Below, one piece after another: positions 16,049-34,441 of a DNA stretch of 36,713 nucleotides. How positions within the stretch are numbered: position 1 is the stretch's first letter; each line of letters opens with the position of its first letter. The stretch comes from Clostridiaceae bacterium. Its GTDB lineage: Bacteria; Bacillota; Clostridia; Acetivibrionales; DUMC01. Made by a program: the position numbers and the translations under genes. The stretch is taken from positions 1 to 36,713 of the forward strand of contig DUMC01000191.1 of assembly GCA_012840075.1 (NCBI GenBank), read 5' to 3'. The notes under the pieces are model-generated. The model saw only the letters and a program-made list of their open reading frames with translations. It made no database searches and was not told the DNA's origin.

Positions 16049-16129
16049 TAGACAGAAGAACCGTCCCCTTGTCTAGACAGAAGAACCGTCCCCTTGTCTA
16101 CATAGACAGAAGAACCGTCCCCTTGTCTA
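16049..16129. repeat. Three copies of a 27-bp REP-like element at the dnaJ stop codon
   Basis: Three identical 27-bp copies lie at 16049-16075, 16074-16100 and 16103-16129. Each has inverted ends TAGACA/TGTCTA around GAAGAACCGTCCCCT. On the dnaJ strand each reads TAGACAAGGGGACGG and onward. The first three bases of the nearest copy are the TAG stop codon of dnaJ. The same core recurs at 33999-34165. Confidence 0.9.
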
Positions 16130-17299
16130 CAACCCCAGGGCATCTTTCATTTTGTCAAAAAAGCTTTTCCTTTGTTCATAAACTTCATCGCCGCTGATGG
16201 CTGCAAATTCACGAAGAATGGCTTTTTGCTTTTCATTTAATTTTCTCGGCACTTCTATATTCACTTTAAAGTACAGGTCACCTCTGCCACCACCCCTGAT
16301 GTATGGTATTCCCTTGCCTTTTATTTTAAATACGGTACCTGTTTGTGTTCCTTCAGGGATATTGTATAGCATTTTTCCTTCCAGGGTCGGAACTTCTATT
16401 TCGGCACCAAGCGCGCCTTGGACAAATGTTATGGGTATCTCACACATTATGTCGTTGCCTTTTCTTTTGAATATGCTATGGGGTTTTACACTAATATCTA
16501 TATATAAATCTCCGGGAGGTCCGCCTCTTAAACCGGGCTCTCCTTCACCTCTCAGAGATATTGTTTGTCCATCATCAATTCCGGCAGGAATCTTTACCTT
16601 TATTTTTACGTTCTTTTTAACTCTTCCGCTCCCTTTACAAACTTCACAAGGGTGAGTAATAACTTTTCCTTCCCCTTTGCAAACATCACAAGTTTGTATG
16701 CTTACAAAGCTTCCAAGAGCCGTACTGCGTCTATATTGTACTTGTCCTGTACCATTACAATGCTTACAGGTTTCAGGATTTGTTCCCGGCTTTGAACCAC
16801 TGCCTTTACATGTATTACAAACTTCAGTTCTGGATATGGGTATTTCTTTTTCCGTTCCAAATGCAGCTTCTTCAAAGGATATTTCCAGTCTATATCTCAA
16901 ATCAGACCCACGTTGTGGTCCCTTTCTTCCCCTGGAACTTCGGCTGCTGAAGCCTGAACCACCAAACGGTCCGTCAAAATCAAAAATTGTCTCAAATATA
17001 TCACTAAAACCACCAAAACCGAAATCGCCAAATCCTCCAAAACCACCGAAACCGCTGTCAAAACCACCCTGTTCGAAAGCCGAATGTCCAAATCGGTCAT
17101 ATTTTGCTTTCTTTTCCGGGTCGCTAAGTATTTCATAAGCTTCATTAATTTCTTTAAATTTTGCTTCTGCGTCTTTATTTCCCGGATTAACATCAGGATG
17201 ATATTTTTTAGCAAGTTTTCTATATGCTTTTTTTATTTCTTCTTCGGTAGCGTCCCTTGATACACCCAGAATTTCGTAGTAATCCTTTTTATCTGCCAT
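16127..17299 (-). CDS. dnaJ: Chaperone DnaJ (Hsp40)
   Basis: DnaJ delivers unfolded proteins to DnaK and stimulates its ATPase. In order, the protein has a J domain with HPD at residues 34-36, a Gly/Phe-rich linker, four CxxCxGxG zinc modules ([32 protein letters not shown]), and the C-terminal substrate domains. I start at [10 protein letters not shown] (390 residues); upstream in-frame codons add a non-homologous basic leader, and an AAGGAG lies about 12 bases before this ATG. The stop codon TAG is formed by a repeat element, but the protein end (KDALGL) looks normal. A terminator separates it from dnaK, so it may be expressed partly on its own. Confidence 0.97.
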
Positions 17300-24916: not shown

Positions 24917-25351
24917 TCGTTGCTTCCTTTCATAAAAAGTCATTTTTATAATTTTTTATAACTTTCTAATTATATAATGATTATTTTAATTGTATAATGA
25001 TTTATTTTCTATTTTTATATTTTGTTTTACATATTAAAGTTTATATAATAAAATGAATGAATTTGCAAAACAATTACCATACTTTTCAATAAATCCAAAA
25101 AAAATAAAACCATTAATAGGTTTTATTTCTTCAATTGTACTTATTATAACATAATTTAATATTTCATTGAATATATTTAATGAACTTTGGATCAAATATT
25201 ACTTTCATGATACTCTTCACACATTATTCAATTATATTATATTTTTTATGTTTAGGAATATCAATATTATAAGTTTCCCCATTTTAATAAATTGAAAACT
25301 GCCTAATTCTATTCAAATGACTTTTGGTTATATACCCCTAAAATTTATCTG
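24917..25351. other. AT-rich gap between the transport island and lepA
   Basis: About 435 bases hold the terminator of the island (25102-25128) and must hold the lepA promoter. TATAATGATT occurs twice in tandem near 24970-25000. I see no ORF or known leader structure. Confidence 0.5.
25102..25128 (-). terminator. Terminator of the transport island
   Basis: AAATAAAACC pairs with GGTTTTATTT (10-bp stem, 7-base loop). On the - strand it is followed by a run of T. It lies about 220 bases past the stop of the beta-propeller gene. The stem is AT-rich and therefore weak. Confidence 0.55.
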
Positions 25352-26515
25352 TTAAGTACATTTTACTATATCTCCGATATCAAGAATGTACATTTGTCTT
25401 TCACCCGAATGAACTGAATCAATGCAAACCTTATTACCTGCTCTATTCCATCTTGGATGCAGATCACATCTAAGCTCACCATGAAATTCAGGCGGGGAAT
25501 AAAAATATCCAATATCATACCTTATATTATTTTCAATATCAAACAATATTAGCGGCCGCATACCTTTTGCATCAGGATACTCATCGGTAAGGATCCATCT
25601 GCCATCCGGCGATACGGTGCAATGTCCGTTTCGATCTAATACACCTTCTCCAATAATTTTTATATCGTCAGTAATATCCTCAATAATATAGTAAGCATTG
25701 CCTTTGTAACCTCTAGCCCATATCAAAATATGGTTATTGTCATACCAGATAAAATGAGAACCATCTAAAATATCGGATACAAAAATGTTTTCTCCATTTA
25801 TATCAGCCGTGCAAAGTCTTGTATAGAAAGATTTTTTGTCTTCTGTATTCCATCTATGTAAAAATATGAATCTTTCATTTGTAGGATTGAAAAGTAGATG
25901 GTTAAACCAGTGAATCGCATCATCCATATTGTCTTGGTGCTTAATAGCTACTATCTCATCCAGACTTATGATCAACTTGTGGTCACCGCTTTCCAAATCC
26001 ATAATATATATACCATCATCATCCGGATGCTTTTGTTCTATCCTCCAATCCCGTAAGCCATTATAACCATAACCGGGACGAGTGATTGCAAGCCTTGAAA
26101 AATTTAAGCTAAGAGCTTTTTTCCCGTCGTTTGATAAAGTATAAATCGGTCTGGGAAGAACCTTTCTTTTTCCGGTTTCCACATCAATTATTATTGATAC
26201 AAAGCGATCACCAATTCTATCATTATGTATAACCCTTGTTTTACTGCCAGGTATCCACTGGAACATAGTTCCTTGCTGCCAGCACCATGCTTTCGAAGAA
26301 GATAGAGGAATGAACTCATAGTCTCTTTGTGTATCAATCATTCCTAGAATAATTTGGTCATCTCCGCCCGGGGACCGATCAATAAAGTCTACCTCATTAG
26401 ATAAGATGTATCGATCCGTTTCATCCCATTGATGTTTATCATAGTAACCAAAAAAATGATGTTTCGGTCCTCTTGTTATCTGGATAGGCTCTATGGATTT
26501 AATTATTTTATTCAT
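25352..26515 (-). CDS. Putative beta-propeller protein of a sugar-uptake operon
   Basis: This 387-residue protein has no signal peptide and looks like a seven-bladed beta-propeller. WD40-like (PD40) blades end in motifs such as SPDGRWILTDEYP and HPRWNRAGNKVCID. Distinctive conserved-looking segments are GPKHHFFGYYDKHQWD (16-31), IHWFNHLLFNP (201-211), FLHRW (218-222), GHCTVSPDG (297-305) and LHPRW (352-356). Histidines 202, 206, 220, 298 and 353 could form a metal or catalytic site. Length and fold recall oligogalacturonate lyase (PL22), but I cannot confirm that family. As the last gene after a solute-binding protein and two permeases, it may act on the imported oligosaccharide in the cytoplasm. 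The ATG has AGGAGAGAG upstream. Confidence 0.6.
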   Translation of the reverse strand: MNKIIKSIEPIQITRGPKHHFFGYYDKHQWDETDRYILSNEVDFIDRSPGGDDQIILGMIDTQRDYEFIPLSSSKAWCWQQGTMFQWIPGSKTRVIHNDRIGDRFVSIIIDVETGKRKVLPRPIYTLSNDGKKALSLNFSRLAITRPGYGYNGLRDWRIEQKHPDDDGIYIMDLESGDHKLIISLDEIVAIKHQDNMDDAIHWFNHLLFNPTNERFIFLHRWNTEDKKSFYTRLCTADINGENIFVSDILDGSHFIWYDNNHILIWARGYKGNAYYIIEDITDDIKIIGEGVLDRNGHCTVSPDGRWILTDEYPDAKGMRPLILFDIENNIRYDIGYFYSPPEFHGELRCDLHPRWNRAGNKVCIDSVHSGERQMYILDIGDIVKCT

Positions 26516-26569
26516 CCTATCTCTCTCCTTTGCTTAGCAATATATTTTTTACTTATAAAAATGATTCCT

Positions 26570-27445
26570 TTATCCCTTCAGTGAGCCAATCATAACCCCT
26601 CTAACAAAATACTTTTGTACAAATGGAAATATAATCAATAGCGGTGCAACTGACAAAACGATTACCCCATATTTAACACCTAGTTTTGCCAATGAAGTAT
26701 CTCCTAAATCACTAGATGTTTCAACCTGAACACGGTTTTGTATTAATATTTCCCTTAACACAAGCTGCAATGGATAAAGATTACGGTCTTTAAGATAAAT
26801 TAATGCATTAAAGAAAGAATTCCAATGTCCCGAACCATAAAATAATCCGATAACCGCTATTATGGAGGTGGATAAAGGAAGTACTACACTGAAAAAATAT
26901 CTAAATTCCCCTGCTCCGTCAACCTCTGCTGCATCATGCAGATCATTTGGAATATTAATTTCAAGATATGATCTTGTAATAAATAAATTCCATTGCGATA
27001 CCGCTACTGGCAACAACAAAGCCCATCTTGTGTTAAGTATTCCCAAATCGCGAACCAATAGATAATTAGGGATCATCCCTGCATTAATAAACATAGTAAG
27101 TACTATAAAGAAAATAATCGCCCTGCGCCCAATCAATTCAGGACGAGTCAAAGCATATGCCGCAGTAATGGTAAATGTTATATTTATAAGTGTCCCAACC
27201 AAAGTATAAAATATGCTGTTAACGTATCCGGTCCAAATAGAACTGTATTTGAAAATAATTTTATAAATAGCCAGAGTAAATTCTTTAGGAAATATTAATA
27301 TTGGATTAGCAGCCACAGCTACAGGAGAACTAAACGATGCCGAAAAAACATAAACAAATGGAAATAAAAACATAACTGCCAATAGGATGAAAATGATTTT
27401 TATTATAATCTGAAAAAAGTCATTACGCTTATTAATTGAAGCCAT
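26570..27445 (-). CDS. CUT1 sugar ABC transporter permease (LplC/YtcP type)
   Basis: This is an integral membrane permease of 291 residues with six predicted helices. The first follows FFQIIIKIIFILLAVMFLFPFVYVF. The EAA loop that docks the ATPase reads AAEVDGAGEFRYFFSVVLPLS. The C-terminus FVQKYFVRGVMIGSLKG is typical of the second permease in this subfamily. I start at the ATG with AGGTG upstream; a GTG three codons earlier is the alternative. It pairs with the permease encoded just upstream. No ATPase gene is present, so a shared MsmX-like ATPase encoded elsewhere is inferred. Confidence 0.93.
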   Translation of the reverse strand: MASINKRNDFFQIIIKIIFILLAVMFLFPFVYVFSASFSSPVAVAANPILIFPKEFTLAIYKIIFKYSSIWTGYVNSIFYTLVGTLINITFTITAAYALTRPELIGRRAIIFFIVLTMFINAGMIPNYLLVRDLGILNTRWALLLPVAVSQWNLFITRSYLEINIPNDLHDAAEVDGAGEFRYFFSVVLPLSTSIIAVIGLFYGSGHWNSFFNALIYLKDRNLYPLQLVLREILIQNRVQVETSSDLGDTSLAKLGVKYGVIVLSVAPLLIIFPFVQKYFVRGVMIGSLKG

Positions 27446-27474
27446 CGATATCACCTACTCATAATTAGAATTTA

Positions 27475-28413
27475 TCACCATAATGATTCCCCACTAGCTT
27501 TTTTAGATACACTATTAAATATGACCAGTAATAATAGATTAATAATAGAGTTAAACAACCCTACAGCCGTAGCAAAACTGTATTGCTGATCTACTAATCC
27601 CGAACGATATACATATGTGCTTATAATATCAGCAGTTTGATAAGTATTTGGAGTATACAATAAAAATACTTTCTCAAATCCCACATTCATTATATTTCCT
27701 AAATTTAACAGCAACAATGTAATAATAGTTGGAAGTATACTTGGTAAACTTATCCTTATCATTTTCTGCCATCTATTCGCCCCGTCAATATCTGCAGCCT
27801 CATATAGAAATGGATCAATGGCTCTTATTGAAGCATAATATATAATTGAATTCCAACCCATTTGCTGCCATATTCCGGAACCAACATATATGGTCCTAAA
27901 CCACTCTGGTTTTCTAAGAAAATCTATTGTATTACCAGTCAACGCTTTTATAACTGCATTAACAAAACCTGTACTCGGAGATAAAAAGTTAACAATTAAA
28001 CCACAAATTATTACGGTCGATATAAAATGAGGAACATAACTTATCGATTGTATAACAGAACGGAATTTTTCTGACTTCAGCTCATTCAAAAACAACGCAA
28101 ATATTATTGGAATGGGAAAACCAAATAGAATGCTATAAAAACTCAATAGAAAAGTATTTCTCACTAATCTAAAGAAATAGATTGAATTAAAAAAGCTTTG
28201 AAAGTGTTTGAATCCTACCCATGGACTGTCCTTATACCCAATAAAAGGATTATATTCCTTAAATGCAATCTGCAGTCCATATATAGGTACATAGCGAAAT
28301 ATTAAAAAATAGAGGATAGTCGGCATCAATAAAAGATATAATGCTATGTTCTTTTTTATGATTCTTCTGCTTGACGAATTCATCAATGATTTTTTGCGCA
28401 TTTCATATGCCAC
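27475..28413 (-). CDS. CUT1 sugar ABC transporter permease (LplB type)
   Basis: This 312-residue membrane permease belongs to the LplB family of complex-carbohydrate importers. After a basic cytoplasmic leader, the first helix is IALYLLLMPTILYFLIF. FRYVPIYGLQIAFKEYNPF is a family hallmark. The EAA loop reads YEAADIDGANRWQKMIRISLPSILP. It starts at GTG with GGAGG nine bases upstream. It lies between the solute-binding protein and the partner permease in one operon. Confidence 0.95.
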   Translation of the reverse strand: MAYEMRKKSLMNSSSRRIIKKNIALYLLLMPTILYFLIFRYVPIYGLQIAFKEYNPFIGYKDSPWVGFKHFQSFFNSIYFFRLVRNTFLLSFYSILFGFPIPIIFALFLNELKSEKFRSVIQSISYVPHFISTVIICGLIVNFLSPSTGFVNAVIKALTGNTIDFLRKPEWFRTIYVGSGIWQQMGWNSIIYYASIRAIDPFLYEAADIDGANRWQKMIRISLPSILPTIITLLLLNLGNIMNVGFEKVFLLYTPNTYQTADIISTYVYRSGLVDQQYSFATAVGLFNSIINLLLLVIFNSVSKKASGESLW

Positions 28414-28501
28414 TTACCCTCACCTCCATATAAACAATTTGATAGAAGAGCCATAGAACTATGTTCTACGGATCTTCTATCATAACCGGCACTTATTACG
28501 A

Positions 28502-29875
28502 TTATTTACCACTTGCTGTCTTGAATCTCTGGTAAGCTGCATTATAAAGATCAATCAATTCATTAACTCCAATCGCATCAAATCCTTTGAGAAAACTATC
28601 ATACTCGTCGAAAGATTTTTCCCCCATAATAAATGCATGTATATTTTCATCTACATATGTATCTATATCCCGGGTTAATTCCTGTACTCGTTTCAACTCC
28701 TCATCTGTAAAATGCAACACCGGTGGCTTTTTATCTCCACCATACTTAACTGCTATTTCATTACCGAGTAATGCCTGATGATCTGTTAAAGTTGCAAGAT
28801 AATGTTCAGGCATTAAAACAGTCGCCCAGGTGCTCACGCTGCCTACATAATTATTCAAAAAATCCAATAATGTTAGGGTAGGATGATTTAATACTTCTTC
28901 AGTATATACTGGTTTTCCGTCTTTCATGACATAAGTTTCGCCTTCTCTTCCGAAATCAACAAGCAACCTTCCCTCTTCACTATATAGATAGTCTATCATT
29001 TTAGTGATTTCAACTGCATATTTGGATTTGACGGTAATTACAGCACCACATGTAGGATCAATTTCATTATGCCTACCTAATATATTTCTTTCTCCTGTCG
29101 GTCCCTGTGGTGGTTTCATAGCAACAAATCCAGGATTTTTCCCGGCAGCCTCCAATAACCTATTAAATTTGGTCAAATATCCGGCATTTGAACCGAATGT
29201 ACATGCACCTATTTCTTGCACCGCTCTTGCTATTCCTTCATCTGTCCATCCGCTATTAATACTGAGATATTCCCTATCCAGCAATCCCTCTGAATAAAGC
29301 TTATTTAAATACATTAAAGCATCCTTATAGCGTGGGTCAATTGGACCATATTTAATTTCACCGTTTTCCACAAAGAAATCATTCTGATGTCCCGTTCCTC
29401 TGCTTCCCACGCCAAATGCCCAAATAAGAGGTCTAGGATCTAAAAATAGGGGGTATTTTTCAGGATACTTTTCTTTTATTGCCTTAAATACGTTATATAA
29501 ATCATCTGTAGTTTCAGGAATTTTCATACCTATTTGTGCTTCATATTCCTCTGAACTTACATGTTCCCAAACGACCTTAACACCTGTCCTAGCAACCTGT
29601 TCTTGCCAGAGTATTTGATCATTCCAGCTTTGTATTTCCGGTGCATCCGGTGACGGTACAAAATTAACCCAACCCCTAACGACAACAATATCTTTTCTTT
29701 CTACAGGTTCGGAACCTTTTTCATCTTTAGCATCTTCCCTTGTTGTTCCTGAAGGTTGGGTTTGGGTTTCGGTACTGCTTGCTTTATCACCTGTCCTCTG
29801 GCTGCATGATGTTAAAAATATACAAAAAACTAACGTAATAACAATGAAAGCATTAAATACAGCCCTCTTACCCAT
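28502..29875 (-). CDS. Sugar-binding lipoprotein of the ABC importer, probably internally deleted
   Basis: A lipoprotein signal peptide ends at LTSC, with Cys24 as the lipid-anchored residue, and a Thr/Ser/Glu-rich linker follows. The mature part matches the LplA-like family of extracellular solute-binding proteins. At residue about 116, VSSEEYEAQIG runs straight into MKIPETTDDLYNVFKAIKEK. In this family I would expect about 80-110 residues between those blocks, including the LMIASGDLPD-like segment and the first lobe. The protein is 457 residues against roughly 530-560 normally. The frame is open throughout, so it is an in-frame deletion and not a frameshift. Substrate binding may be lost or changed. 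The ATG has GGGAGG upstream. Confidence 0.85.
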   Translation of the reverse strand: MGKRAVFNAFIVITLVFCIFLTSCSQRTGDKASSTETQTQPSGTTREDAKDEKGSEPVERKDIVVVRGWVNFVPSPDAPEIQSWNDQILWQEQVARTGVKVVWEHVSSEEYEAQIGMKIPETTDDLYNVFKAIKEKYPEKYPLFLDPRPLIWAFGVGSRGTGHQNDFFVENGEIKYGPIDPRYKDALMYLNKLYSEGLLDREYLSINSGWTDEGIARAVQEIGACTFGSNAGYLTKFNRLLEAAGKNPGFVAMKPPQGPTGERNILGRHNEIDPTCGAVITVKSKYAVEITKMIDYLYSEEGRLLVDFGREGETYVMKDGKPVYTEEVLNHPTLTLLDFLNNYVGSVSTWATVLMPEHYLATLTDHQALLGNEIAVKYGGDKKPPVLHFTDEELKRVQELTRDIDTYVDENIHAFIMGEKSFDEYDSFLKGFDAIGVNELIDLYNAAYQRFKTASGK

Positions 29876-29923
29876 AACAACTCCTCCCTTTAATGAAATA
29901 TCTCTTAATATTTATCTTACGTG

Positions 29924-29978
29924 ATCATACTAATAAATTCATGGACTATTTTCAGGAAAAATCTTTAATATTTTCAGG
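29924..29978 (-). promoter_or_regulatory. Predicted activator site and promoter of the transporter genes
   Basis: Two identical 10-bp sequences, TATTTTCAGG, lie at 29947-29956 and 29969-29978 (22 bp apart, two helical turns). On the - strand the nearer one overlaps a weak -35 (AAAATA), and TATGAT (29929-29924) follows after 17 bases. Paired direct sites overlapping a poor -35 are typical of AraC-type activators. The YesN-type regulator encoded upstream is the obvious candidate. Confidence 0.6.
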
Positions 29979-29996
29979 TAAGAAGGTCTTAAAGCT

Positions 29997-31796
29997 TTAT
30001 TTAATTTTAGGTATTGTTACCTTAACACAGGTTCCTTCATTAACCTTGCTTTGAATTTCAACACCATATTCTGAACCGAAAATCAGTTTTATCCTCTGAT
30101 TAACATTCCTAATACCAATGCTACCTCTTTCTATGATATAATGATTTTTGTGACTAAAGTCATCAGCATTAATCATTTCCTTTAATTTGTTTAACTGTTC
30201 ATCTTTCATGCCTTTTCCATTATCAATTACCATAATAACTATTTGTTCACTATTACTTTGTATAACAATTTCTATAACTTTATCATCTTCTTTATCCTCG
30301 AATCCATGATAAATGGAGTTTTCAACCAGGGGTTGCAATATAAAACGGATTATTTTGCATTCCAATATATCTTCATCTAACTTTTTTATAATTTTAAATT
30401 CATTGTTATAACGTACATTCTGCAAGAATAAGTAATTGTCAACATGCATCAATTCATCTTTTATCATAACTAACTCACTGATATCTTTAATACTATAACG
30501 GAATATGTCTGCTAGTGCATAGGTCATGTCCATAATTTCTTGTGCTTGGTATACCTGCGCATAATAATTTATAGAATTCAAAGTATTGTATAAAAAGTGC
30601 GGGTTAATTTGTGCATGGAGGGTTTTTAGCTCAGCTTCCCGTTTTTCAATATTAACAATATAATTTTTTCGTATCATTTCTTTTAACTCCACAATCATCT
30701 TGTTAAGGACATTGGCTAAATGATTAAACTCTTTATAGCTCTTTATATCTAGTTTAGCATCTAACATTCCTTTTTCTATCTTAGATGCAAATTGTTCCAT
30801 TTTATATAAAGGTTTCAGTATGGTCCTTGCCAAATATCCGGATAATATAAGCGACAAGACCAACGAAACAATTACAAATATATAAGTAATATTATTAATA
30901 TTCTTTATCTCTTTTAGTATTTCCGAATAAGATAGTAAATTTATATAAGTCCATCCGACAAGAGATGATTTAAAAGCTTTTAACATATATTTTTCGCCAT
31001 CAATTTCTATAACATCTCGTTCATTATAAAAATCCTCTACATTGATTTGATTTAGTACACTATTTCTCGAGGGATTTGTAGAGAATATAATCTGTCCTTT
31101 TTCATCCAGGATGATAAATATACCCTTTTGCTCTCCTACTATTTTATTAACACTTTTTGTAATACTATTAAGATCAATCACAATAAACAGCAATCCAAGA
31201 TCTCTTGTTCTTATAGTATTTATGATCATTCTTCCTATTATTACTACCTTTTTATTCTTTACCCTTTCGGTGATGTTAAACCATTTTTCCGCATCCTCCA
31301 CCGAAATTGTCAAACTATACAATCCGTTTAATGTCTTTTCAAAAACTTCGCTTTTTGTTAGATCCAAACCTGATTTTATCGGTATCAATCCCTGTCTTAT
31401 ATAATATTCACCATTTTTATCTGAGAATAAAATACTCAGAATATCTCGATTATACTGAATCGACCCTCTCCATAAATAAAACGGAGCTAATATTTTTTCT
31501 TTGTAGTATTCATATGTCCAATTTGAATGACCATCCCATAAGTAATTTAATTGGTTTAACAAGGAATGTATCTCCGGATGATAGATTTGTAGCGTAATTT
31601 GCTCAAATTCTCTAAGATAACTTTCAATTTTTTCATTAACAGAAGTTATGATTAATTCTTCATACTGTATGGCTTTTTGCTCCAAAACATGTGAAAAATA
31701 AAAATGTGCGCATCCAAATAGAACACCTATAATTAATGTGATAACGACCATATATGATATAAACAACCAAAACTTTATACTTTCTGTACATTTCAC
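29997..31796 (-). CDS. YesM-type sensor histidine kinase
   Basis: This is a membrane kinase of 599 residues. Helix one is at about 10-34, followed by an extracellular sensing region to about 300, helix two at about 303-322, and a HAMP domain (KPLYKMEQFASKIEKG). The His_kinase motif INPHFLYNTLNSINYY carries the phospho-accepting His400. The ATPase has LQPLVENSIYHGF (N box), VIDNGKGM and GSIGIRNVNQRI. The start is a GTG inside the stop of the response regulator (GTGA overlap, four bases), with AGGAAGGG upstream, so the two are translationally coupled. It probably senses an extracellular carbohydrate or the loaded binding protein. Confidence 0.96.
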   Translation of the reverse strand: MKCTESIKFWLFISYMVVITLIIGVLFGCAHFYFSHVLEQKAIQYEELIITSVNEKIESYLREFEQITLQIYHPEIHSLLNQLNYLWDGHSNWTYEYYKEKILAPFYLWRGSIQYNRDILSILFSDKNGEYYIRQGLIPIKSGLDLTKSEVFEKTLNGLYSLTISVEDAEKWFNITERVKNKKVVIIGRMIINTIRTRDLGLLFIVIDLNSITKSVNKIVGEQKGIFIILDEKGQIIFSTNPSRNSVLNQINVEDFYNERDVIEIDGEKYMLKAFKSSLVGWTYINLLSYSEILKEIKNINNITYIFVIVSLVLSLILSGYLARTILKPLYKMEQFASKIEKGMLDAKLDIKSYKEFNHLANVLNKMIVELKEMIRKNYIVNIEKREAELKTLHAQINPHFLYNTLNSINYYAQVYQAQEIMDMTYALADIFRYSIKDISELVMIKDELMHVDNYLFLQNVRYNNEFKIIKKLDEDILECKIIRFILQPLVENSIYHGFEDKEDDKVIEIVIQSNSEQIVIMVIDNGKGMKDEQLNKLKEMINADDFSHKNHYIIERGSIGIRNVNQRIKLIFGSEYGVEIQSKVNEGTCVKVTIPKIK

Positions 31797-33349
31797 AGTA
31801 ATCCCTTCCTGTACCTGGCAGGGGACATTCCGGTGTATTTTTTAAAAACCCTGCTAAAATAGTTTGAATCTTCGTAACCTACTTTAAGAGCTACATCCGT
31901 TATTTTTGCATTCTCTACTCTTAATAAGGATTTGGCTTTTTCAATTCGTATCTCAGTTAAATAATCTAGATATGTTTTCCCAGTAACTTTTTTGAATACT
32001 TCGCAAAAATAAGTTGGACTCATATTTGCTATAGAGGAAATATAATCCAGAGATAAATCTTCAGAAAAGTGAATATTAATGTACTCTATGACTTTCTGTA
32101 TTCTTTTACCAGAATCTGAAGATTTGCTTAAGTTTATTTTTACTAAAATCTTTTCAATCTGACGAACCAGCCACTCTATTATTTCTTCTAAATTGTTAGA
32201 ACATGATATGATACTCTCTAATTCCTTAAGTGGTTGTTCATATATCCCATATTCATTAAATAATTGTTGAATGGTTGTTAATAAAATTCTTAGTATGTAC
32301 TCTAATTCTTCATAACGCTTAAAATGAATAGAATTGATATAATCCTTTAATAATATAGTAGATTTATAATCTCCAAGCAAAACATAGTCAAATAAGTCTG
32401 ATATATTAACTTGGTATTTAGTTCTTGATATGATGCTATTATTTTGTAATTCTATCGTCAATTTATCGTATTGTACTATCTTGTCAATTAAAGATGGATC
32501 AACAAGATGATGTCTAGCTGCTATAGTTGCTTCTACATATCTTTGATTCAACTGACATAAGTCTGAAAATACATGACTTGCTCCTATACATATTTTTAAA
32601 CCTATACCAGCAAAATATTGCCGTATATTTTTTAGAATTATGCTAACATCAAATTGTTCTGTTACATTACCTATTAACACAAATTCTATATCTGATATTT
32701 GAATATATAAAGCTTCATATTTTTTATAAGAAAATTTTTGCAAAATTAAATCTACACATTTATTTAATTCTACTAATCTATCAACCTGTTTATTATCTTC
32801 ACTGTTTTCTGGTATTCTTAATACAGAACAAAAATAAAGTGGATTAGACATATAGCTTTTTATTTTATCATATCTTATTTTTCTTTCCGTTATTTGATTG
32901 TTGTCAAACAACAATTCTTTTATAATTCCTTGGATTTTGATCCGATCCATATTTATCTTTTGATAATTTTCATTTTCTAATTCATCAATAACTTTTTCCA
33001 ATGCTGCATAAAGTTCGGATGCCTTTACCGGCTTAAGAACATAATCAAATGCTTTTACTTGAAATGCTTTTTTACAATACTCAAAATCGCTATATCCGCT
33101 AATCATTACAGCTTTCACCAAAGGATTATAATACTTCTGCACATGTTCAATAAGTTCAAAACCATCCATTCCTGGCATTTTGATATCTACAAGCATAATA
33201 TCCGGAACATTCTCAGAAAACTTTTGTAAGGCTTCTCTGCCAGATCTGGCTGTTATAATATTGAATTGATGTTTATCGTACTTAGATAAGAAATTTTTCA
33301 CACATTTAATGGACAGTATTTCATCATCAATTATTGCTAATGTATACAT
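31793..33349 (-). CDS. YesN-type response regulator with AraC DNA-binding domain
   Basis: The 518-residue protein has a receiver domain (1-120) with acidic residues D8 and D9, phosphorylation site D55 (MLVDIKMPG) and K106. A long middle region follows, and an AraC/XylS helix-turn-helix pair occupies about 415-517 (YISSIANMSPTYFCEVFKK and VGYEDSNYFSRVFKKYTGMSP). It is first in the island and overlaps the kinase gene by four bases. It should activate the downstream transporter genes, and a paired direct repeat before the lipoprotein gene fits as its site. The ATG is preceded by AAAAGGTG. Confidence 0.96.
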   Translation of the reverse strand: MYTLAIIDDEILSIKCVKNFLSKYDKHQFNIITARSGREALQKFSENVPDIMLVDIKMPGMDGFELIEHVQKYYNPLVKAVMISGYSDFEYCKKAFQVKAFDYVLKPVKASELYAALEKVIDELENENYQKINMDRIKIQGIIKELLFDNNQITERKIRYDKIKSYMSNPLYFCSVLRIPENSEDNKQVDRLVELNKCVDLILQKFSYKKYEALYIQISDIEFVLIGNVTEQFDVSIILKNIRQYFAGIGLKICIGASHVFSDLCQLNQRYVEATIAARHHLVDPSLIDKIVQYDKLTIELQNNSIISRTKYQVNISDLFDYVLLGDYKSTILLKDYINSIHFKRYEELEYILRILLTTIQQLFNEYGIYEQPLKELESIISCSNNLEEIIEWLVRQIEKILVKINLSKSSDSGKRIQKVIEYINIHFSEDLSLDYISSIANMSPTYFCEVFKKVTGKTYLDYLTEIRIEKAKSLLRVENAKITDVALKVGYEDSNYFSRVFKKYTGMSPARYRKGLL

Positions 33350-33764
33350 CAGAGAATCACCTTTTACTATAAATATAACGATAAAATAATATAAAAATTA
33401 ACCATCTGCTGCAATACCCTGAATAATCTGTGAACATTAACCTTATGAGTTATAATACTAATCATATGTTCAGATATGTTAATGTCTAAAAACTGTTTTA
33501 AAAGACATTTTTTAATATACTAGTAGCTAATTAAATTCTGTGCTTGCATGTACAATTTTACACTAAAACACTATATGTTTCAAGATAAAGAATACGCATG
33601 AGGTGTATAAAATATATGACCTATATATTGTAACACTGCCATCTTCTTTATAATATTTTATAATATTAGGTATACTTTTCACATATATGAATTAATATTC
33701 TAGTAGATTAAGTTAGAAATACCCAATTTTATTTACATTTATTCCTATTTAACATCTTTATTTT
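33350..33764. other. AT-rich gap at the island's upstream end
   Basis: About 415 bases must carry the regulator-kinase promoter. I find no gene, strong hairpin or clear -35/-10 pair. TCTAGTAG-like words near 33520 and 33700 recur, but mean little in such AT-rich DNA. Confidence 0.45.
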
Positions 33765-33956
33765 TTATGATGCATATGTCTCTTCAATTATATCTTCCCT
33801 ATTATTACTTTCATATTTAGTTCGAAGGGCTGCTATATATTTGGCTCCATCGATACTCCATCTCATCTCCGATAGCTTCATCTTTTGTTGTATTACTGTT
33901 TTGTGTGTTTTTTCTATTGCTCCGCTTCCCATATAATATCCTTTTTCCTTAAACAT
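33765..33956 (-). pseudogene. C-terminal remnant of a transposase
   Basis: Sixty-three residues resemble the extreme C-terminus of IS transposases. YYMGSGAIEKTHKTVIQQ provides a catalytic-type glutamate context, and MRWSIDGAKYIAALRTKYES follows. I recall this pattern from ISKra4- and ISLre2-like transposases and cannot decide between them. Reading upstream, the frame closes a few codons before MFKEKG, just short of the repeat cluster, so everything N-terminal is gone. It marks a past insertion at the border of the transport island. Confidence 0.6.
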
Positions 33957-33998
33957 CTTATAATCCCGACTTTAGTGGTTATCATCATAAACTTTAGT

Positions 33999-34165
33999 GA
34001 GACATGGGGACGGTTCTCTTGTCTGGGTGAGACATGGGGACGGTTCTCTTGTCTGTTTCTCTGAGTCAGACAGGAGGACAGACAAGGGCTAAGACATGGG
34101 CAGACATGGGGACGGTTCTTTTGTCTGTCCCCCTGAGTCAGACAAAAGAACCGTCCCCATGTCTA
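33999..34165. repeat. Cluster of REP-like GGGGACGGTTCT elements
   Basis: Copies read GAGACATGGGGACGGTTCTC and onward at 33999-34024 and 34029-34054. A degraded stretch follows. A third copy (34102-34127) and an inverted fourth copy (34139-34164) form a perfect 26-bp stem with an 11-base loop. The last base, 34165, touches the stop codon of the next gene. The core matches the elements at the dnaJ stop, with GACAT in place of GACAA. Confidence 0.9.
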
Positions 34166-34441
34166 TTAATTCAAAACGCTCTTTACCTGGTCAACAATTT
34201 TTGCTATAAAGTCCGAACTTGGCTTTAATTTATAGTTTAATATATTAATTTCAAATTTAGAGTTCTCATTTTCAAATGAAAAAACTTTGACTTTTGCATT
34301 GCTGGCCATAAGTTTGTTTATTGAATAGTCAGCAGCTATTACACCTGCTATGGTCAATATTAAGGACAAAAAAATGACTCTTCTGCACTTCCTTTTATAT
34401 TTTTTAATGCTTCTGTATCTTTCGCTTCTGCTCATCCTCAT
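34166..34441 (-). CDS. Small membrane-anchored protein of unknown function
   Basis: The protein has 91 residues. The first 22 are strongly basic (MRMSRSERYRSIKKYKRKCRR), then one hydrophobic helix (VIFLSLILTIAGVIAADYSI), then about 45 residues outside the membrane with alternating polar and hydrophobic residues. By the positive-inside rule the C-terminus faces outward. It lies downstream of spoIIP on the same strand, with 272 bases between, and may belong to the sporulation neighbourhood. I do not recognise the family. The ribosome site is weak (AAGAG), and an ATG two codons on is the alternative start. The stop is directly followed by a REP-like element. Confidence 0.65.
   Translation of the reverse strand: MRMSRSERYRSIKKYKRKCRRVIFLSLILTIAGVIAADYSINKLMASNAKVKVFSFENENSKFEINILNYKLKPSSDFIAKIVDQVKSVLN

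Follow-up and report, generated by a model that had tools for sequence, protein, structure and literature searches.

The window, a stretch of 36,713 nucleotides from a draft clostridial genome, carries a sugar-transport operon at 24943-34166, all genes of which described here lie on the reverse strand. An AraC-type response regulator (31793-33349; Response_reg and HTH_18) is followed by a sensor histidine kinase (29997-31796), which combines His_kinase and HATPase_c domains with a cache-like sensor that matches dCache_1 below the Pfam cut-off. Next come the gene under study, a short form of a solute-binding lipoprotein of the AlgQ/Smon0123/LplA type (28502-29875; 457 aa), and two ABC permeases of family PF00528, one of 312 aa (27475-28413) that is intact and has full-length paralogue matches, and one of 294 aa (26570-27454). 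The open frames and full domain matches of the permeases, the kinase and the regulator agree with the original prediction that the rest of the operon is healthy. The operon ends with a 387-aa protein (25352-26515) without a Pfam or NCBIfam match, which is matched in 7 of the order's 58 genomes, its own included; it contains the motif HHFFGYYDK and is presumably similar to propeller-like, unnamed proteins encoded in polysaccharide loci. The operon is flanked by lepA and a small gene adjoining spoIIP. Because a genome of a sister genus (G002; locus L193) has spoIIP, a small gene of similar size and lepA side by side, the whole operon is an insertion relative to that genome; in another genome (G001; L194), no SpoIIP match was found upstream of lepA within the stretch compared. 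Beside the operon, an ISKra4-family transposase has left a remnant of 63 aa (33765-33956), corresponding to the last 51 residues of the family model. Two tandem arrays of 29-30 bp units (33997-34055 and 16049-16131) both contain the word GGGGACGGTTCT, on the one strand in one array and on the other strand in the other, and are possibly a dispersed repeat of this genome.

What is unusual about the binding protein? Its frame is uninterrupted over 457 codons, as had been claimed, and its ATG start is preceded by a ribosome-binding site (GGGAGGAG); the product has a signal peptide with a sequence, LTSC, that by inspection is lipobox-like. The Pfam match to SBP_bac_1 (PF01547) reaches 42.4 bits against a gathering cut-off of 26, covers only positions 124-305 of the 307 in the profile and begins at protein residue 115. 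An alignment with 31 homologues opens a single large gap after residue 109, where every homologue has 87-112 additional residues (median 95). A wider set was built from 131 homologous ORFs of the same genome, the order, plasmids and the genome_contigs collection, of which 120 were aligned after removal of nine at locus or contig ends and two duplicates. Of these 120, many of which are closely related to one another or paralogous and so do not amount to a count of independent lineages, 119 carry 84-112 residues at the gap (median 96); in a further alignment (A3), 88-105 residues are present in all 74 sequences. The one exception (L127; JASGMM010000001.1) is a frameshifted binding-protein gene with the segment in another frame, and hence none of the 120 homologues has lost it as the window gene has. 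The L127 frameshift sits directly after the equivalent of the segment, around GIKE, and splits the gene into two frames. Likewise, the phmmer matches to the eight strongest PDB relatives begin at query residues 99-111 as against chain residues 127-166. The original prediction of a large in-frame loss from the N-lobe is thus borne out by the homologue alignments, and its placement near residue 116 and its size of 80-110 residues are right within alignment error: the gap moves between residues 107 and 109 depending on the alignment, and the true breakpoint falls within about residues 104-117 (junction at codons ~107-117; 29525-29557). Judged from these alignments, an in-frame loss of about 96 codons, seen in one genome, looks real.

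Which part of the protein is affected? In a full-length relative from Paenibacillus contaminans (L070), the segment aligns with residues 90-188. The model of that relative (mean pLDDT 90.4) places a helix (92-105), a strand (111-115), several helices and a second strand (171-175) there, together with most of a strand (184-189) that runs into the first kept helix. On the evidence of this model, the window protein lacks the greater part of the first N-lobe subdomain, with three strands, several helices and the first crossover strand. The retained N-terminal part (29555-29875) would comprise the signal peptide, a linker and the first N-lobe strand-helix-strand (strands 64-69 and 99-104 and helix 88-97 in the model of the short protein), and the retained C-terminal part (28502-29554) the C1, N2 and C2 regions.

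Among solved structures, the nearest relatives are 5XS8, a family-1 protein of 505 aa, the alginate-binding proteins AlgQ1 and AlgQ2 of Sphingomonas sp. A1, and Smon0123 of Streptobacillus moniliformis (5GUB, 5GX8). Relatives from Paenibacillus and Clostridia, which we take to be of the LplA type, are likewise encoded beside two permeases and share about 26-36% identity with the window protein, but all those compared have the segment. AlgQ1 and AlgQ2 resemble the window protein in sequence from residue ~107 (E 4e-26 to 2e-24) and, as modelled, in the overall fold of its retained parts (Z about 24), whereas the window protein lacks the EF-hand-like calcium loop (DPNGNGKxDE) and about 96 residues from the first N-lobe subdomain. 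Judged by this pattern, the loop is also missing from 46 of 120 relatives and therefore does not define the wider family. Similarity to the seventh cluster of binding proteins (AlgQ/Smon0123/FusA-type) is evident in both sequence (phmmer E 4e-27 to 2e-24) and fold (Z 22.7-24.6 for AlgQ1, AlgQ2 and Smon0123, among the matches listed), but the large size with a complete N1-C1-N2-C2 arrangement is not found, about 96 N1 residues being absent. Smon0123 matches from residue 100 (E 5e-26; Z 23.8), and a profile alignment, with numbering anchored on the calcium ligands Asp189-Glu198, equates the segment that the window protein lacks with about residues 64-160. In the published Smon0123 structures, Tyr146 contacts the sugar, and Asn97 forms a hydrogen bond with the C2 subdomain only when substrate is bound (PMC5717064). 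In the alignment both positions fall inside the missing stretch; the other contacts given in that study (His36; Arg204 onwards) lie outside it.

The retained sequence shows no sign of long decay. Of 35 columns in the C-terminal part with conservation in 80% or more of 116 relatives (four of the 120 rows having been left out as disrupted or over-long), the window protein keeps 31, and 32 of the 116 relatives keep fewer. Among 117 proteins, its root-to-tip distance ranks only 97th largest, which gives no indication of acceleration; the window protein does sit on a rather long terminal branch (16th longest), and it ranks 20th lowest in mean identity to the rest of the set. Since the remaining sequence is without visible decay, the deletion is probably recent on the time scale of the family.

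How might the loss affect the protein? The structural modelling that had been suggested as a check placed the remainder on the AlgQ fold, superposing it on AlgQ1 with a Z of 24.6 and an rmsd of 3.6 over 374 residues. The model has a mean pLDDT of 78.7 and a pTM of 0.72; residues 106-116 fall below a pLDDT of 50, and the junction is accordingly predicted to be disordered. AlphaFold supplied with an alignment of intact relatives tends toward the family fold, and the AlgQ-like superposition is therefore weak evidence of folding. We envision a scenario whereby an ordinary two-lobed sugar-binding lipoprotein gene underwent one in-frame deletion of about 96 codons, and whereby the short protein would still be made and exported. 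With about 96 residues lost, however, the protein would probably be unable to close on its sugar: the normal closing cleft should not form once the first crossover strand and the bulk of the first N-lobe subdomain are gone, so that the importer would be unfed or barely fed. The earlier expectation that importer function is lost or altered is supported in this structural sense, and we consider it reasonably probable that the deletion disables or severely changes the binding protein within an operon that is otherwise intact.

Alternatively, the short form may be a reduced but working binding protein. It would still dock on the permeases, and might recognise a different ligand or take part in signalling. 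The intact frame, ribosome-binding site and lipobox, the intact operon including its two-component system, and the AlgQ-like arrangement kept in the model are all in line with this notion, and the conserved remainder also fits a protein in use. We nevertheless regard it as unlikely, given that other short forms are absent among the 120 homologues, that the crossover strand and a position known in Smon0123 to contact sugar are gone, and that the junction is predicted to be disordered; docking of a working half-N-lobe protein on the permeases, or signalling by it to the adjacent sensor kinase, is a decidedly unlikely proposition. If the short form did work, the family could function without the first crossover strand, and a dispensable part of a Venus-flytrap binding protein would have been revealed; otherwise the deletion matters little.

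How might a disabling deletion have arisen? Recombination between GMKI-like short repeats, said to stand on both sides of the gap in many family members, finds no support. A loose version of the word occurs on both sides in 26 of 117 homologues (three disrupted ones of the 120 being left out), and the upstream form [IL]GMK[IL] in none of them. At the DNA level, the longest in-frame word common to the two flanks averages 5.5 nt in these 117, no longer than expected by chance (5.3 nt for flanks of different genes and 5.7 nt when a randomly chosen window in the same gene is compared), and it reaches 10 nt in a single homologue. Chance microhomology at the ancestral breakpoint may have been involved. 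Conceivably, the gene could instead be a chimera whose N-terminal piece and body stem from two binding-protein genes joined in frame, in a genome with over 30 paralogues and with a transposase remnant adjoining the operon. Neither piece is close to any paralogue, however, and third-position GC is similar on both sides of the junction (0.28 in the N-terminal and 0.265 in the C-terminal piece) and so gives no hint that genes differing in composition were spliced together; a chimeric origin thus appears highly improbable.

A further explanation is that the organism has the segment and that about 288 bases were skipped in assembly or consensus calling. The draft consists of 193 contigs, contains a large paralogue family and has many transporter genes with frameshifts or stops, which would all be compatible with such an error. 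Yet the skip would be in frame and structurally in register, and the flanks in homologues lack long common words that could confuse an assembler. Moreover, the 201 bases of junction DNA are unique in the genome, the longest perfect match elsewhere among those listed being 19 bases, which makes mis-joining to a paralogue unlikely. Of 38 matches to the segment in the genome, most lie in full-length frames. The shorter frames inspected either adjoin a contig end or belong to genes disrupted at another point, and no orphan copy could be assigned to the window gene, although a copy of the gene's own segment may have escaped notice. On balance, we think an artefact rather unlikely.

The preferred reading, a genuine disabling deletion, finds a parallel in the same genome (G000), where at least eight other genes for binding proteins show damage that does not lie at a contig end. 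They include frameshifted genes on contigs C38 and C144, genes with in-frame stops on C92, C93 and C145, one with both a frameshift and an in-frame stop on C172 (near 20.6 kb), a 5' truncated gene on the same contig (near 7.9 kb) and a remnant on C114 (damaged-gene loci: L009, L014, L174, L175, L184, L185 and L188-L190). Among permease paralogues, 3 of 49 matches contain stops and further frames are short; since several of these are broken too, evidence for a special decay of binding proteins is lacking. The damaged transporter genes may reflect either pseudogene formation or draft error. In a genome with many other damaged transporter genes, the window gene looks like one more ordinary case, and it usefully illustrates how an in-frame lesion would get past gene callers as an intact transporter gene.

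The segment loss, in a known type of binding protein, is ordinary as biology and most likely disabling. In the titles and abstract openings searched, no report was found of binding proteins, or of LplA proteins, with a truncation or an internal deletion. Besides the gene itself, no relative above 36% identity was detected in 3 genomes of the family, 58 of the order, 391 (sampled) of the class or 398 of the phylum, each set including the own genome, at E cut-offs of 1e-40, 1e-35, 1e-48 and 1e-48, respectively, which leave weaker matches aside; the genus-level search covered the own genome only. Viral contigs contained no relative of the binding protein, and none was found when genome_contigs was searched with just the protein; when an alignment was used as query, the best 80 of 424 relatives were kept. 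On plasmids, 99 records matched, every one below 60% identity. Rhizobial plasmid proteins among them appeared as continuous matches from query residue 55, and where annotated proved to be encoded by a full-length 1569-base gene that carries the segment.
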